From IMG/VR virus record IMGVR_UViG_3300035698_023197, positions 1 to 64,000 of that record: a stretch of 64,000 nt of DNA; one strand, 5' to 3'. This DNA is from a virus. Every line of letters begins with the position of its first letter. The first letter of the stretch is position 1. Below the pieces are notes generated by a model that saw nothing but the letters and a program-made list of their open reading frames with translations, did not search any database and was not told the DNA's origin. Of this stretch, positions 21,118 through 27,641 are shown piece after piece. The translations under genes were made by a program, and so were the position numbers.

Positions 21118-22008
21118 ATGGACCCAAACAACATCACGGCCAGGATCATTGCCGACAGCCAGAACACTCACGGCCAACGACTTACCAGCTTTCTTCTCCG
21201 ATATCCGAGGTTCATCCATTCGGAATTGATGACGCACCGGATGCTGAGCCGCAATGCGGCGTCGAGCAGAGCTATCCCAGTCAAGCGGATGATCGCCACT
21301 ATCAGAGCCAACCCGGCGCTTCCTGAATGGTGGGGAGCCACACAGCGCGGCATGCAAGCCAAGGCCCAGGTCGACGAGGCGGCACTGGCCATCTGCAAGG
21401 ATTTGTGGATGCAACAACGAGACCTAACCGTCGAAACTGTCTCGCAGCTTTTGGACGCCGGGTTGCACAAGCAGATCGCTAACCGACTCCTTGAACCGTG
21501 GAGCCACATCACGGTACTCGTCACTGCTACCTGTTTCAGCAATTTTTTCTCGCTGAGAGCCCACCCCGATGCCCAACCCGAATTTCAAGTACTGGCCTAC
21601 AAGATGCTCCAACGATTTTTGGGGCAGTCTCCAGAGGATGTCGCTGAGGGTGAGTGGCATATGCCGTTCGGCGATCAGATGGACGACAGCATGGACCTCC
21701 AGCAGCGGCTCAAAGTCGCCACGGCTCGCTCCGCCCGACTGAGCTACAACACATTCGACGGCGTCATCGACCCACTCAAGGACTACGAGTTGCATGACGA
21801 TCTGGCAGCTTCTGGCCACTGGTCCCCCTTCGAACATTGTGCCATGGCCGACCCTGTCGTCGTTAGTTCCGGCAACTTCCGTGGCGGCTGGCGTCAGTAC
21901 CGTGCCACCTTCGAACGGGAGAACAGGACAGCAGTCGACCTCGACAGAATCCTTGCCGACAAGCCCGACTGGATCGACACTGCAGAGCCCGTGGAGGTTG
22001 CGGCGTGA
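21118..22008 (+). CDS. thyX: Flavin-dependent thymidylate synthase ThyX
   Basis: 296 aa. The ThyX signature is present as THRMLSRNAASSR (residues 39-51), fitting the RHR-x2-S-x-N-x2-S-x-R pattern with Thr in place of the first Arg. The C-terminal half contains the conserved HWSPFEHCA segment and an RQYRATFERE stretch. The enzyme makes dTMP from dUMP using FADH2 and methylene-tetrahydrofolate, supporting phage DNA synthesis. Its TGA overlaps the GTG start of the DNA polymerase gene, so the two are coupled. The length is above the ~230 aa of compact ThyX proteins but common among phage versions. Confidence 0.92.
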   Translation: MDPNNITARIIADSQNTHGQRLTSFLLRYPRFIHSELMTHRMLSRNAASSRAIPVKRMIATIRANPALPEWWGATQRGMQAKAQVDEAALAICKDLWMQQRDLTVETVSQLLDAGLHKQIANRLLEPWSHITVLVTATCFSNFFSLRAHPDAQPEFQVLAYKMLQRFLGQSPEDVAEGEWHMPFGDQMDDSMDLQQRLKVATARSARLSYNTFDGVIDPLKDYELHDDLAASGHWSPFEHCAMADPVVVSSGNFRGGWRQYRATFERENRTAVDLDRILADKPDWIDTAEPVEVAA

Positions 22009-25000
22009 GCGAAGATGATGGCCCAAAGCCGGGGACAACCAACCCGCTATGCGAAAAGTGTGGCTTCCACAAGCTCTGCAAGAGTCCCTTCCAGACGGTA
22101 GCGTGGATCGACAAGAATGGGTCGCCCCACAAGGGCATGCCGCCCGAGGATGAGAAACCTGAAGAGGGGTGGCTCGCCGTGGTCGGAGACGCCCCGGACG
22201 TGCGGGCTGACAATAATAACGACATCCGAGCCAGTGAATCCGTCCGGTTCATGGCGAAACTCGCCCAGCAGTCTCTCGGTATCTCGGGTCGGGTCGTCTA
22301 CTTCCCAACTCTGCGTTGCATGCCCCGCAAGCTGCAGGAGAACGAGCTAAAAGACGCCAAGCCGACCAAGACTGAGCTTGCTCGTTGCTTCGATAACTTC
22401 ACGAAGCCATTAATTGAAAAGCTCAAGCCGAAAGGCGTCATCGCATCCGGCTACCTCGCGTCAAACCGAGTCATCGGGCGGATGGACTTTCAGAACCTCG
22501 TCGGGCGGACCTATAGCTTTGCGGGTGCTCCATCCCGCGCTGTGTGGCCAGTCGACTATCTGCTGCGCGACACGGCGGGCCAGAAGCAGGAGTTCATGAG
22601 CATCTGGCGCGATGCCTTGGATCGGATCGACAATCCGGACCTGAAAAACGTCTGGAGCGACACGATCGATTATGACTTGGTCACGACGCCCGAAGGGTTG
22701 TTGGCCTGGTTTCGCCCGCTCCTCGCTTATTTCAAGGAGCAGCGAGCAAATGGCGAGCGGGTTGTACCTGTGGCGTGGGACTTGGAGACCTCGTCACTGC
22801 ACGTCTTCCAGCGAGCGTACTACACAGGTCTGATCTCCTTCGACCACAAAACTCAGGCCAATCCGCTGGTCGTCCCGCTCAAATATCCTGGGGCAGACAA
22901 GATCTACCGCCGAGAAAATCCGGACGATCCGCGCTCTTGGGAAGAGTGCCTGACGCAAATCGACGCGATTTTGAAGAAGCTGCTGGAGTCTCCAGCCATC
23001 CCGAAGACAGGCCACAACTTGATGTACGATGAGGCGGGAATCTTCGCCGACTACGGGTACGAGCCCAAAGGCTTCTACGCCGACACGATGTTGCTGAACT
23101 TCATTCTCCACCCAGAGGAGAAGGGCTTGAACTCGTTGGACGACATGTGTCGCAAGCTGCTACCAAACATTCCTCATTACTGGGAGAGGTTGTACGCGTA
23201 TCGGCAAGAACATGAGATCGAGACTTACATGGACATACCAGAGGCGACTCTGTTTCCGTATGCTGCGTACGATACTCGTGTCACGTCCATGATTCTAGCC
23301 GAACTCGAGAAGCAGCTCGACAACGACGAACATGGCGGCTGGTTCATGCGGACCACAGAGCCTCCAGAGACGCCGACTTATTCGATGCGGGACTATGCGA
23401 TCCATGGCAGGAGCGTGCACCACAAACTTTGCGGACACCTGCAGCGGTTTGGCCAGCACTATGACGAGGATCTCGTCGAGCAGATTTACACCCACTACGA
23501 CGCCCTGCGCAAAGACTGGGGAGGACAGCTGGCCGAAGATGAGGACTTGATCCGGTTTGAGACCGAGATGCTGGGACCCACGGCTGGTCCATCCACCGAC
23601 GCCCACAAGTTGTGGAAGAAGTGGCGCGAGGCTGGTATGCACCGTGCCATGGACGAGGCTTTAGATACCCAGAAGCGTGAGCACAAGATCGCTAACGAGA
23701 AGTACAAGGAAGATGCCAAGGCGTGGCGTTCTCGGTGTGCCGTCTTCGTCAATGGGAAAGTCGCAGAGATGCGAGCAATGCGGAAGGCATCTGGAAAAGA
23801 AGATCCCGGCGCGGAAAAATGGAAAGAAGTCCGCACTAAGATGAAGAGCATGTTCGAGAGGCTGATAGAAGAGCCACCACCGAAAGCCGTCGGACCGAAA
23901 GTCGGCGACTTCAAGAAGAATTTCAAAGCGACGTTCGACCTCCCCGAGGGCCACATGCCTGAGCACCTGCGCCCTCGCATCTCGTGGTCCAGTGTGCCGC
24001 AACAGAAGATGTTCTTCATCGACTTCCTCAAGCTGCCCATCCTCAAAAAGACCGAGAATGGCGGTCCAAGCCTCGATGCTGACGTGCTGCTCAAGTATTC
24101 GAATCACCCACATGGCAACGACACCGCAAAGAAGCTACTAAGCTGGCGCGGCATGGACAAGTTCATCGTCAGTTTCCTGGACCCGATCATAAACTCTGCC
24201 GAGACGGAGCCGAAAAAGAAGATCGTGCACGACGATGGGTTGATTCACTGTTCCTTCGGTGCGGGAGATACGACCACTGGCAGACTGTCATGCGTCGCCC
24301 CTTACACTGAACTTAAGACACCTTACGGTAGAATTAGAATTGACGCGGCACAACCTGGTATTTTGGTGGACTCAGGGAACGGTAATTACAAGCGTGTCAA
24401 AGAAGTTTATTATAAAGGTATCTCCCCGATGTTCCGTGTTACCAACGGGAGGGGTGACCATCTCGACTGCACCATCGATCACAAACTCCTTACCCCAACG
24501 GGGTGGCGGCGAGTTGGAGATCTCTGTGAAGGAGATCTGCTGTTACCAGCAAATAACAACGTGGAAGTTGGAACACCCAGTGATCTTGAGCGGTCAAAGG
24601 AGGTATCAAATATTGTCCCCGGAGAGCTACCAGACGTTGTACCTTGCTCAAGCCTTACCCCGCAAATGGTTTGTCGAGAGGGGGGTAAAAACCAACATAC
24701 TAGTAGTGTCTCAAGCTTTGTACGGGGGGAAAGCGAGCGCAAGGAAAAGAGAATTGTGCAGTTCGACTCCGTGGAATCGAGGGTCAAAGAATCCGCCGTC
24801 GGTTCTACTGGGGAAAGAAGACCTGGAGAAGATGATACTTTTGGGGCTTCCTCCAGAAGGGATGGCGAAGATGATGAAAGTGTCTCCGTTTTTGTTGAGT
24901 CGCAACTTACAATGGCACGGCTTGGCGGAAGGAGTGGGGAGGCGTCTGGGCAACTTGACAGACGCAGACTGGGTGATGATGGGAAAACTGGAAAATTTCG

Positions 25001-27641
25001 CCCCAGGGTTGATGGATACAGCGAGAGATTACTTCTGCAACCCGGGTCCTTACTTCGACAAGTTGTACGAGGCGCATTTGGCATGGATGGACATGCGGTT
25101 ACTAATACTAAAGGCCAAGTCTTCGCATTCCTATCACTGCGGGAGGGGAAATGTACCGAAAAACCAGATTTGTTGGTCTATCAACCAGGCAGAAGCGTTG
25201 CTATCCACGGAATTGTCGAGGCGCGGGATTCAGCACGTGAGGGAATGGCCGATGGACAGCGGTCCATCCTCCCGGATGGTAGATTTTCTAATCAACAATG
25301 TCGTGGTGGAAATAGATGGAACACAGCACTTAGAGAAGAAAGAAGCGGACGATCAAAGAGACGAGGAGTTGCGTTCGAGGGGGTTGGTGGTGGTGAGAGT
25401 CCTGGAAACGACGATCAGGAAATCTTCCACCAATTGGGTGGGGGAGACGTTACTGCCGTTGTTAGTATTGCCCCGATAGGGGAGCAAGAGGTGTGGGATA
25501 TTCAAGTAGAACAGGATCACTCGTACGCATCCGGCTCGTTCGTTTCTCACAATAGCAAGCGGCCCAATATGCAAGCCATCCCACGAGATGGTCTGGTCAA
25601 GAAAATCTACGGCTCACGATACGGCAAGCAAGGTTGGATCATGACGCGAGATTATAGCGGGCTGGAAGTTCGGATCATGGCCTTGATGGCGCGGGATGAG
25701 GCGTTGCTTCATTCTTTCCGGACTGGTGGCGATCCGCACTTCGACATCACTCAGAAACACTTCTTCGGGGAGAAGGCCAACGCCAAGGACAAGACCCAAC
25801 GGTCGATCTGCAAACGAACCCTGTTCGGCAACATTTATGGGCAAGGCGACAAGGGGCTTTTCGAGATGCTCACGGGTGAGGCCATTATCTCGCCAAACAC
25901 CGGAGAGCCTGTCACTCTCGAGGAGTGCGCAGAGTTCAACAAGATGTTGTATGAGGCATTGCCGGGTGTTGGTGTGTGGACGGACCTTGCACATGAACAG
26001 GGTATTCGCCACCACTGGGCGTGTTCGGCCTTCGGGTTTGTGCGACCGCTCCCAGATCTCAAAAGTTACAAGGCCATGAAGGCCCAGGAAGCAAACAAGT
26101 CGTGGGACGAGAGGCAAAACGACCGCCGATTGAGGATGTTGAGCATGGACGTTTCAAAGGACTTACGCAGGTCCCAAAACATGCCAATTCAGTCCTGTGC
26201 ATCTGACCTCACAGTATTTGCCGCATACTGGATCAACCGCCAATTTGAGCAAGAAGGACTCGACACCCGCGTCTTCAATGTTGTACACGATGATATATGG
26301 TGTATGACAGAGGATGTACACGTCCTCAAGTGGGGTGATGGGTGGGTGACCCACGACAAGTTAGTCGAGGGAGACAAAATCCTCACAAAAAATCCTGAGA
26401 CAAAGTCTTTAGAATGGCAACCAGTACTGCGCAAAACTTACTTCGGAAAACAGCCAGTAAAAAGAATAAAGCACAGAACCATTGACGTTACCACAACCTC
26501 AAATCACCGATGGCTCGCCGACAATAAAAGCGGGAATACTCGCACACTTCTGACATCGGAGTTGGAAAAGCTGTCCGATAGTTCTGGGAGGGTGCACAGA
26601 ACTGGGGTCAATGGGAATGCGGATAGCGATTACTCCGACGACTTCCTTTCCCTGGTGGGTTGGGTCATTACTGATGGGTCAATGACGCAACCAAAAAGAG
26701 GGGGGCCTCGTGGCTATGTGTGCCAAACCAAAGAGGAGGTGCTGAGTGACATGTTAACCACAATAAATCACAATGGTTGGGGCACGGGTAACGTCTCTAC
26801 AGGCGGTAGCGGATGTTCGAAGATCCACCTTAACGCAGCCACTAGTTTGCGTTTGTCCTCTATTTTGGAACCGGGATTCAAAACTCTCGACCCTTTATTC
26901 ATTTGGTCATTATCACAACGTCAGGCCAACGTAGTGTTTAATGCATCGATGCAAGGGGATGGTACGACCAGAGGAAATGCCAGGTTATTGTATTGCGAGA
27001 ACGAAAAGGAGGCGCTATCAATACAACAACTTGTGGTGGCTATGGGGTCGTCGTCTCATGCTTACAAAAGAAAAGGCGAAACAAAACCGCGATCTCTCAA
27101 GTGCGGCAGAGAGATCAAAACAAATTTGGGATGGATTGTTCACGTTTACTACTCTCCTTACTTCACCAAAGGACGCCTTAACAATTTCGAAAATAGTGTG
27201 GAAAATGTGTGGTGTCCATCGGTCGAAAATAGATTCTTTGTGGCGCGTAGTAAAGGCTTCACATTCATTACCGGCAACTCAGACGTGCCGTGCGACGACG
27301 AAGTTATCCCCGTGACATGCATCTACAAAGACACAATGGACCACGTCACCAAGTGGTTGCCAGATCTGCTCCCCGGGTACGATGCCAGCTGGATCGACAT
27401 ACCAATCATCGGGGAAGCCGAACTCGGCGTCAACCCGAAGGATGCCCTCGCGTTAGTGGAGGAACCCACAAAATACGACGATACGAAGACTCTTAAACTG
27501 CAGATTACTCTGGATGACAACACAGATGACACATATGACGTGTTTTCTAAAGACGAAGAAAAGGGATCTGCTATACTGGAGTTTGCGGGGAATGAGAGAG
27601 CCATCAAGGAGGCTCTGACGCTCAAACGGATGGTTTTTTAG
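22005..27641 (+). CDS. polA: DNA polymerase I-type replicase with N-terminal UDG-like domain and two inteins
   Basis: 1878 aa precursor; 1131 aa after removal of both inteins. The GTG start has GGAGG 9 bases upstream and overlaps the thyX stop. Residues 1-215 resemble family-4 uracil-DNA glycosylases (C16-x2-C19, C25, GDAPD near 61-65, C105, C128), as in SPO1-type phage polymerases. The 3'-5' exonuclease domain starts at WDLETSSL (D259, E261). The polymerase domain has TTGRLS at the first intein junction, motif A RDYSGLEVR, motif B KRTLFGNIYG and motif C VVHDDIW at the second junction. Splicing would give TTGRLS-SKRPNMQ and VVHDDIW-SDVPCDDE, both matching intact PolA motifs. It replicates the phage genome in the cytoplasm. 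Confidence 0.93.
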   Translation: MSEDDGPKPGTTNPLCEKCGFHKLCKSPFQTVAWIDKNGSPHKGMPPEDEKPEEGWLAVVGDAPDVRADNNNDIRASESVRFMAKLAQQSLGISGRVVYFPTLRCMPRKLQENELKDAKPTKTELARCFDNFTKPLIEKLKPKGVIASGYLASNRVIGRMDFQNLVGRTYSFAGAPSRAVWPVDYLLRDTAGQKQEFMSIWRDALDRIDNPDLKNVWSDTIDYDLVTTPEGLLAWFRPLLAYFKEQRANGERVVPVAWDLETSSLHVFQRAYYTGLISFDHKTQANPLVVPLKYPGADKIYRRENPDDPRSWEECLTQIDAILKKLLESPAIPKTGHNLMYDEAGIFADYGYEPKGFYADTMLLNFILHPEEKGLNSLDDMCRKLLPNIPHYWERLYAYRQEHEIETYMDIPEATLFPYAAYDTRVTSMILAELEKQLDNDEHGGWFMRTTEPPETPTYSMRDYAIHGRSVHHKLCGHLQRFGQHYDEDLVEQIYTHYDALRKDWGGQLAEDEDLIRFETEMLGPTAGPSTDAHKLWKKWREAGMHRAMDEALDTQKREHKIANEKYKEDAKAWRSRCAVFVNGKVAEMRAMRKASGKEDPGAEKWKEVRTKMKSMFERLIEEPPPKAVGPKVGDFKKNFKATFDLPEGHMPEHLRPRISWSSVPQQKMFFIDFLKLPILKKTENGGPSLDADVLLKYSNHPHGNDTAKKLLSWRGMDKFIVSFLDPIINSAETEPKKKIVHDDGLIHCSFGAGDTTTGRLSCVAPYTELKTPYGRIRIDAAQPGILVDSGNGNYKRVKEVYYKGISPMFRVTNGRGDHLDCTIDHKLLTPTGWRRVGDLCEGDLLLPANNNVEVGTPSDLERSKEVSNIVPGELPDVVPCSSLTPQMVCREGGKNQHTSSVSSFVRGESERKEKRIVQFDSVESRVKESAVGSTGERRPGEDDTFGASSRRDGEDDESVSVFVESQLTMARLGGRSGEASGQLDRRRLGDDGKTGKFRPRVDGYSERLLLQPGSLLRQVVRGAFGMDGHAVTNTKGQVFAFLSLREGKCTEKPDLLVYQPGRSVAIHGIVEARDSAREGMADGQRSILPDGRFSNQQCRGGNRWNTALREERSGRSKRRGVAFEGVGGGESPGNDDQEIFHQLGGGDVTAVVSIAPIGEQEVWDIQVEQDHSYASGSFVSHNSKRPNMQAIPRDGLVKKIYGSRYGKQGWIMTRDYSGLEVRIMALMARDEALLHSFRTGGDPHFDITQKHFFGEKANAKDKTQRSICKRTLFGNIYGQGDKGLFEMLTGEAIISPNTGEPVTLEECAEFNKMLYEALPGVGVWTDLAHEQGIRHHWACSAFGFVRPLPDLKSYKAMKAQEANKSWDERQNDRRLRMLSMDVSKDLRRSQNMPIQSCASDLTVFAAYWINRQFEQEGLDTRVFNVVHDDIWCMTEDVHVLKWGDGWVTHDKLVEGDKILTKNPETKSLEWQPVLRKTYFGKQPVKRIKHRTIDVTTTSNHRWLADNKSGNTRTLLTSELEKLSDSSGRVHRTGVNGNADSDYSDDFLSLVGWVITDGSMTQPKRGGPRGYVCQTKEEVLSDMLTTINHNGWGTGNVSTGGSGCSKIHLNAATSLRLSSILEPGFKTLDPLFIWSLSQRQANVVFNASMQGDGTTRGNARLLYCENEKEALSIQQLVVAMGSSSHAYKRKGETKPRSLKCGREIKTNLGWIVHVYYSPYFTKGRLNNFENSVENVWCPSVENRFFVARSKGFTFITGNSDVPCDDEVIPVTCIYKDTMDHVTKWLPDLLPGYDASWIDIPIIGEAELGVNPKDALALVEEPTKYDDTKTLKLQITLDDNTDDTYDVFSKDEEKGSAILEFAGNERAIKEALTLKRMVF
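24596..24604 (+). promoter_or_regulatory. Strong internal Shine-Dalgarno for the nested endonuclease
   Basis: AAAGGAGGT lies inside intein-coding sequence, with 9 bases from the GGAGG core to a TTG at 24613 in the +1 frame. It is one of the strongest ribosome-binding sites in the window and has no purpose for the intein frame. Confidence 0.8.
24613..25479 (+). CDS. EDxHD/Vsr-like (DUF559-like) homing endonuclease nested out of frame in intein 1
   Basis: 288 aa from TTG 24613, in the +1 frame relative to the polymerase-intein ORF. Residues 1-180 are helical and may bind DNA (SPESYQTLYLAQALPRKWFV; LPPEGMAKMMKVSPFLL). The C-terminal domain carries the restriction-fold signature of EDxHD/Vsr-type nucleases: Glu194 in the first helix, Asp224 (RMVDFL), Glu233 and Asp235 with His239 (VEIDGTQH), an Asp cluster 246-250, and a closing LVVVRVLE strand. 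The family includes I-Bth0305I and endonucleases seen between split-intein halves. It ends with TAG 74 bases before the intein end. Independent translation is inferred from the dedicated Shine-Dalgarno and the motif-bearing frame. Confidence 0.8.
   Translation: MSPESYQTLYLAQALPRKWFVERGVKTNILVVSQALYGGKASARKRELCSSTPWNRGSKNPPSVLLGKEDLEKMILLGLPPEGMAKMMKVSPFLLSRNLQWHGLAEGVGRRLGNLTDADWVMMGKLENFAPGLMDTARDYFCNPGPYFDKLYEAHLAWMDMRLLILKAKSSHSYHCGRGNVPKNQICWSINQAEALLSTELSRRGIQHVREWPMDSGPSSRMVDFLINNVVVEIDGTQHLEKKEADDQRDEELRSRGLVVVRVLETTIRKSSTNWVGETLLPLLVLPR
26301..27278 (+). mobile_element. Intein 2 with LAGLIDADG endonuclease domain (326 aa)
   Basis: Precursor residues 1433-1758. It starts with Cys (C-M-T-E-D-V); block B has TTTSNHRWLA (TxxH). 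The endonuclease domain carries two diverged dodecapeptide motifs, SLVGWVITDG and FNASMQGDG, with the acidic residue kept in each. The C-terminal block is ENRFFVARSKGFTFITGN followed by extein Ser. The penultimate residue is Gly instead of His, a known but less common variant that can slow Asn cyclisation. Insertion is directly after VVHDDIW, the catalytic motif C of the polymerase, so the enzyme is inactive until spliced. Confidence 0.9.

Follow-up and report, generated by a model that had tools for sequence, protein, structure and literature searches.

A contiguous intein in a viral family A DNA polymerase very probably carries a separate nuclease gene in its +1 frame

The window analysed here is a stretch of 64,000 nucleotides (positions 1 to 64,000) of the IMG/VR virus record IMGVR_UViG_3300035698_023197, which is 64,952 bases long. 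It contains a family A DNA polymerase (PolA) ORF interrupted by two inteins. This ORF (22005-27641) is single and stop-free, indicating that the intein halves do not lie in separate ORFs as in a split intein. A gene for a ThyX-type thymidylate synthase (window 21118-22008) is found directly 5' of polA. The second intein (window 26301-27278) is in-frame and shares 31% identity over its own length with the PolA intein of phage DP SC_2_H4_2017; it is LAGLIDADG-like by motif only, with no Pfam match. The polymerase ORF and the features of its first intein (intein 1) are the following:

22005-27641, + strand: PolA, family A DNA polymerase ORF, the host gene (Pfam DNA_pol_A, E 8.5e-40; DNA_pol_A_exo1; PHROG DNA polymerase)
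24291-25553, + strand: intein 1, contiguous in the polymerase frame (Cys1, TxxH, SHN|S; PF14890; HINT model)
24291-24563, + strand: N-terminal splicing block, intein residues 1-91 (pLDDT 84-98; 46% identity to the intein of locus L016)
24564-25448, + strand: intein-frame linker, residues 92-386, with no stop codon (predicted disordered, pLDDT <50 nearly throughout; stop statistics)
25449-25553, + strand: C-terminal splicing block, residues 387-421 (pLDDT mostly 81-98; 40% identity to L016)
24596-24604, + strand: Shine-Dalgarno (SD) sequence AAAGGAGGT of the nested gene, 8 nt before TTG 24613 (pairing energy)
24613-25479, + strand: nested nuclease gene, TTG start, TAG stop, 288 aa, helix-turn-helix (HTH) and Vsr-like (Pfam DUF559; homologues nested in L024 and L035, free in L030)
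24808-24915, + strand: HTH region, nuclease residues 66-101 (AlphaFold helices, pLDDT ~80; the aligned part of L035 matches HTH_23 weakly)
25177-25476, + strand: Vsr-like catalytic domain, residues 189-288, with D224, E233, D235 and H239 (structure matches; Foldseek)

In the polymerase frame (frame 0), intein 1 corresponds to codons 763-1183 of the PolA ORF and is inserted at the conserved site GRLS|SxxPNxQ. Its sequence is that of a class 1 cis-splicing intein, with Cys1, a block B TxxH (T61..H64) and a C-terminal SHN|S; C1, T61, H64, H420 and N421 are invariant or nearly so across 19 inteins. Frame 0 gives a match to the Pfam Intein_splicing model PF14890 that spans the linker (E 2.5e-9), with a score exceeding the model's own cut-off when intein 1 is scanned alone. 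AlphaFold, run with 19 related inteins, confidently folded residues 1-91 and 388-421 into a HINT domain (pLDDT mostly >90 in both blocks) and predicted disorder for nearly everything between them. This model matches the gp41-1, RecA and DnaB inteins, and its Foldseek list is filled by intein structures (best E 1.8e-6) led by the gp41-1 intein, a naturally split intein. Motifs, PF14890 and the HINT model thus bear out the original prediction of an intein at 24291-25553 with intact splicing blocks in the polymerase frame, coordinates included. The linker, described in that prediction as some 290 residues devoid of nuclease motif, is slightly longer (about 295 residues); none of the Pfam nuclease models matched frame 0 of intein 1, so this frame does not contain a canonical fused endonuclease.

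In the +1 frame no stop occurs between position 24244, which precedes the TTG, and the TAG at 25477-25479, and this is the only frame matching DUF559 (PF04480, Pfam E 1.2e-8). The tail of the nuclease gene overlaps the first ~31 nt of the C-terminal splicing block. The AlphaFold model of the nuclease, built on a 4-sequence alignment (mean pLDDT 56.8), is confident in the HTH and catalytic domains only, residues 1-58 and most of 106-190 being modelled without reliability. The catalytic domain model resembles 3hrl (NGO0050, Z 12.3), I-Bth0305I (PDB 3r3p, Z 11.2, Foldseek probability 1.00) and Vsr (1cw0, Z 9.8). Predicted structure and sequence thus show a Vsr-like / EDxHD fold with the D..ExD..H residues, and in the DUF559-type nucleases aligned D224, D235 and H239 are invariant while E233 is present in 3/4. 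The catalytic domain fold is shared with I-Bth0305I, an EDxHD homing endonuclease, but the gene of the window nuclease lies out of frame (+1) within an intein, and identity over the aligned domain is only 14%. The DUF559 match, the four catalytic residues and the fold models agree with the 288-aa Vsr-like nuclease that had been predicted in this frame. Structure models of both frames, proposed at that time as a check, give a HINT domain with a disordered linker for frame 0 and HTH plus Vsr-like domains for the +1 frame.

TTG is a weak start codon. The SD preceding it is near-consensus and ties for the strongest among nested genes. Its pairing energy is stronger than that of all 409 background +1-frame start codons taken from related loci, confirming that the nested gene has an SD of its own, as first claimed. 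Codon usage is atypical for the genome in both frames, in keeping with a recent acquisition of this DNA.

Chance does not account for two open frames. When the nuclease was resampled with synonymous codons, a mean of 13.7 stops appeared in the intein frame, and none of the samples (0/20,000) was free of them, as the observed sequence is. Permuting the nuclease's own synonymous codons gave a mean of 9.3 intein-frame stops, with P(0)=5e-5. The reverse test, in which the intein linker is fixed and the nuclease frame has to be open, gave P values of 0.0041 and 0.0002 in two computations. Nuclease codons placed before AA, AG or GA never end in T (0/79, versus 40/208 elsewhere), which shows how stops are avoided in the intein frame. 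In the window's 23 other coding sequences, stop-free +1 runs reach 180 codons at most.

Viral contigs were scanned for DNA encoding an intein end joined to the PolA junction (HN|SxxPNxQxIP), a procedure blind to linker layout. Of the 40 loci obtained, 39 are inteins at the PolA site. Layouts were assigned by inspection of all loci, the in-frame types being recognized by eye from sequence motifs. A contiguous intein with a +1-frame nuclease was found in 25/39 loci, about two thirds, and the others have an in-frame HNH (11), an in-frame LAGLIDADG (1) or a split intein (2). These 25 nested loci include near-duplicate contigs, and 20 distinct loci plus the window were analysed; the contigs of L017 and L024 end before the N block. 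Over 21 loci, at-risk codons ending in T number 0/1031 versus 599/2853 elsewhere, a zero that is partly definitional for a contiguous ORF, and the per-locus permutation gave P <=0.027.

Most of the nested genes are members of a single HNH_3 family (Pfam E 1.5e-11 for L034), and the +1 register of the window is shared by HNH nucleases in ~20 further contigs. Nested genes start ~240 nt into the intein and usually end 38-50 nt before its end. Most of the nested HNH genes share an M-S-x-S-K start, and the HNH residues are invariant in the HNH relatives. An SD-like core precedes 14/19 nested starts versus 48/409 background starts (p 6e-10), the nested starts having been chosen from the conserved N terminus and the one assumed for L035 possibly not being the true one. 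A scan with an HNH profile yielded further PolA cases, and no relative was found in GTDB genomes scanned with the HNH subset. In L058, a PolA intein located at another site (after PNLQQ) has a +1-frame HNH spanned by the open intein frame.

Homologues of the window nuclease are nested in 2 of the 25 loci, L024 (E 1e-13) and L035 (E 1e-13 over the HTH and nuclease parts); both are distant, at <30% identity. Their homology indicates that the nested nuclease is conserved in frame and position. L035 has a Trp at the position aligned with window Glu233, a difference that may reflect ongoing decay of some nested nucleases. Viral contigs scanned with single proteins gave no close relative of the window nuclease, intein or polymerase; phage records contained no nuclease relative at E 1e-5 and chance-level matches only at E 1, and a DNA pattern for ICWSxNxAE matched L024 alone. 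Fold models of both frames, homologous +1-frame nucleases at the PolA site of other phages and the ~20 HNH contigs together support the claim of a separate, overlapping nuclease gene in an uninterrupted intein. The claim was to fall if relatives conserved neither the +1 frame nor its SD, and both are conserved among them.

Since the nested homologues of the window nuclease are <30% identical, substitution rates per codon position were measured in 17 HNH relatives instead of dN/dS. In the N block (0.47/0.39/0.67) the fastest position is the frame-0 third position, and in the nested gene (0.42/0.36/0.57) it is the third position of the nuclease. In the overlap of the nuclease tail with the C block (0.43/0.29/0.41) rates are reduced in both frames, and downstream of the nuclease stop (0.34/0.27/0.62) the frame-0 third position is again the fastest. 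Amino-acid identity in the HNH relatives is 48% in the nuclease frame versus 27% in the intein frame.

One of the two split inteins at the PolA site, L030, serves as a natural control, with a free-standing DUF559 nuclease related to that of the window and lying in the same +1 register. Its N and C halves share one frame, which contains 55 stops, many of them expected from its AT-rich sequence, and an ATG stands at the start of its C block. The other, L043, is split without a nuclease. The suggestion that the window intein is an intermediate between fused and split inteins becomes more plausible through L030, though not as to the direction of change. In a tree of splicing domains, in which long branches make fine placement unsure, the in-frame-HNH inteins stand apart from a group (86/81) with all nested PolA inteins tested, L030 and the mini-intein of Microcystis phage Mvi-JY20. 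The window intein is in a set of 11 rows (95/88) made mostly of nested-HNH inteins, so that one type of nuclease was probably swapped for another without any change of the +1 layout.

The HNH profile scan also found ~15 inteins of TerL in viral contigs with an HNH in the +2 frame. TerL inteins with an unannotated +2-frame HNH are present in three named phages, Tetrasphaera phage TJE1, Acinetobacter phage Highwayman and Rhodobacteraceae phage LS06-2018-MD07 (L127, L128, L129); stop statistics of single TerL loci are weaker (P0 0 to 0.31). Moreover, phage polA introns inserted no more than a few codons away from the intein site hold related HNH genes in Providencia phage PS3, Phormidium phage Pf-WMP3 and Escherichia phage PhAPEC7 (L130, L131, L132). 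Splicing elements of both kinds, RNA and protein, may thus have acquired nucleases aimed at the PolA site sequence. In Pectobacterium phage Ymer (L005), a helicase gene is split by a LAGLIDADG gene overlapping both parts, which are in one frame with stops across the nuclease.

We conclude that intein 1 is, with high probability, a contiguous intein that splices in cis and whose linker harbours, in the +1 frame, a free-standing gene for a homing endonuclease. With its endonuclease in an overlapping frame, it would represent a third layout next to the fused and the split one. Translation of the full polymerase frame would give a precursor from which the intein, with its disordered linker, would splice out. 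A second initiation at the internal SD/TTG (24596-24615) would produce the Vsr-like nuclease as a separate protein. The presumed target of this protein, suggested by location only, is the conserved GRLS|SxxPN region in PolA genes that lack the intein; repair of the cut would copy the whole intein into them. The intein frame would be kept stop-free by selection on an essential polymerase, and the nuclease frame by selection or recent homing. Such an element may have originated by invasion of the linker of a mini-intein by a free-standing homing endonuclease gene.

Other readings of the locus were weighed against this one. Homing endonucleases commonly decay after fixation, and the nuclease frame could be a relic that is no longer expressed, its DNA surviving only as an intein linker; this general tendency and the L035 protein, devoid of the residue aligned with Glu233, speak for it. 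We nevertheless consider a relic improbable, as the window copy keeps an intact ORF, an intact catalytic pattern and a near-consensus SD, and as the nuclease frame is the constrained one in the HNH relatives with their invariant HNH residues. Programmed frameshifting from the N block into the +1 frame would yield an N-intein-nuclease fusion and no separate protein, and a shifted ribosome could reach the nuclease because the +1 frame is already open upstream of the TTG. A strong SD and a start exactly at the nuclease boundary, SD enrichment in the nested family and the M-S-x-S-K start shared by most nested HNH genes make frameshifting quite unlikely.

The intein might also be split and act in trans, its frame-0 readthrough being incidental, as the PolA site also hosts the true split inteins L030 and L043 and the best structural match is the gp41-1 intein. 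This is very unlikely given that frame 0 is open against ~14 expected stops and that, by eye, the C block of the window has no ATG at its start, where L030 has one together with its 55 stops. Finally, metagenomic contigs can carry indels, and assembly or sequencing indels could have broken an ordinary in-frame fused endonuclease, leaving an apparent change of frame; beyond this general possibility, no tool result is in favour of it. Such an origin would take a pair of indels compensating each other, and it would leave stops in the intein frame. The layout recurs in >20 contigs from different metagenomes, and its +2 version in the three named phage genomes. An error cannot recur across independent metagenomes, so that an indel, named originally as what would overturn the claim, has a negligible probability. 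The separate +1-frame gene in a contiguous intein is thus the reading we retain.

The window intein resembles canonical inteins with an in-frame HNH or LAGLIDADG (11 + 1 at the PolA site, and intein 2 of the window) in insertion site and intein type at the PolA site. It differs from them in that their endonuclease is part of the intein polypeptide, whereas the nuclease of intein 1 is separate. Fractured genes, reportedly described by Dassa et al. in 2009, are split inteins with a free-standing Vsr-like endonuclease between their halves. The window shares with them the nuclease superfamily and a free-standing gene between splicing blocks, and L030 is such a case at the PolA site; their intein halves are separate genes, whereas the window nuclease is crossed by one uninterrupted ORF.

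The closest published case, although without an intein, is the ShiLan domain, a hidden out-of-frame HNH in an insertion of a phage DNA methylase (Arsenault, Gosselin, Gogarten 2025, PMC11855218); its authors argue that it lacks an SD and belongs neither to the inteins nor to the introns. In both cases a phage gene has an insertion through which the host frame stays open, and a homing-type endonuclease with a start and a stop of its own is encoded there out of frame. They differ in that the ShiLan domain is an HNH in a methylase without splicing domain or detectable SD, while the window has an intein, a strong SD and a Vsr-like nuclease. Two of our loci (L061, L085) resemble the ShiLan element: they are DNA methylase genes devoid of intein motifs, with an HNH hidden in another frame. 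A preprint on actinobacteriophage inteins (Gosselin et al. 2025, 10.1101/2025.01.02.630785) announces a 'non-canonical architecture' in its title and is cited in PMC11855218 for overlapping frames; judged by these two elements, it may describe something similar, and priority is uncertain. The original view needs adjusting in two respects: the arrangement is common at the PolA site (25/39 loci) and not unique, and an out-of-frame endonuclease has a precedent in a non-intein phage insertion (PMC11855218).

It is possible, and we propose it tentatively, that inteins with a homing endonuclease in an overlapping frame form a general third architecture, neither fused nor split. It might have two or more origins (PolA +1, TerL +2) involving two nuclease families, be dominant at the phage PolA GRLS|S site, and be a missing link to split inteins once stops accumulate in the intein frame. 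At this locus one DNA stretch serves both a polymerase that is essential and a nuclease that is selfish, two proteins with opposed interests, giving an intein a way to carry a nuclease under independent translational control. The arrangement could also connect fused or mini inteins with split inteins, the origin of which is unsettled. Because standard annotation misses the second gene, which is unlabelled inside TerL in the three named phages, the nuclease content of phage inteins is undercounted. The idea is directly testable with the named TerL phages and with the PolA site common to introns with related HNH enzymes.
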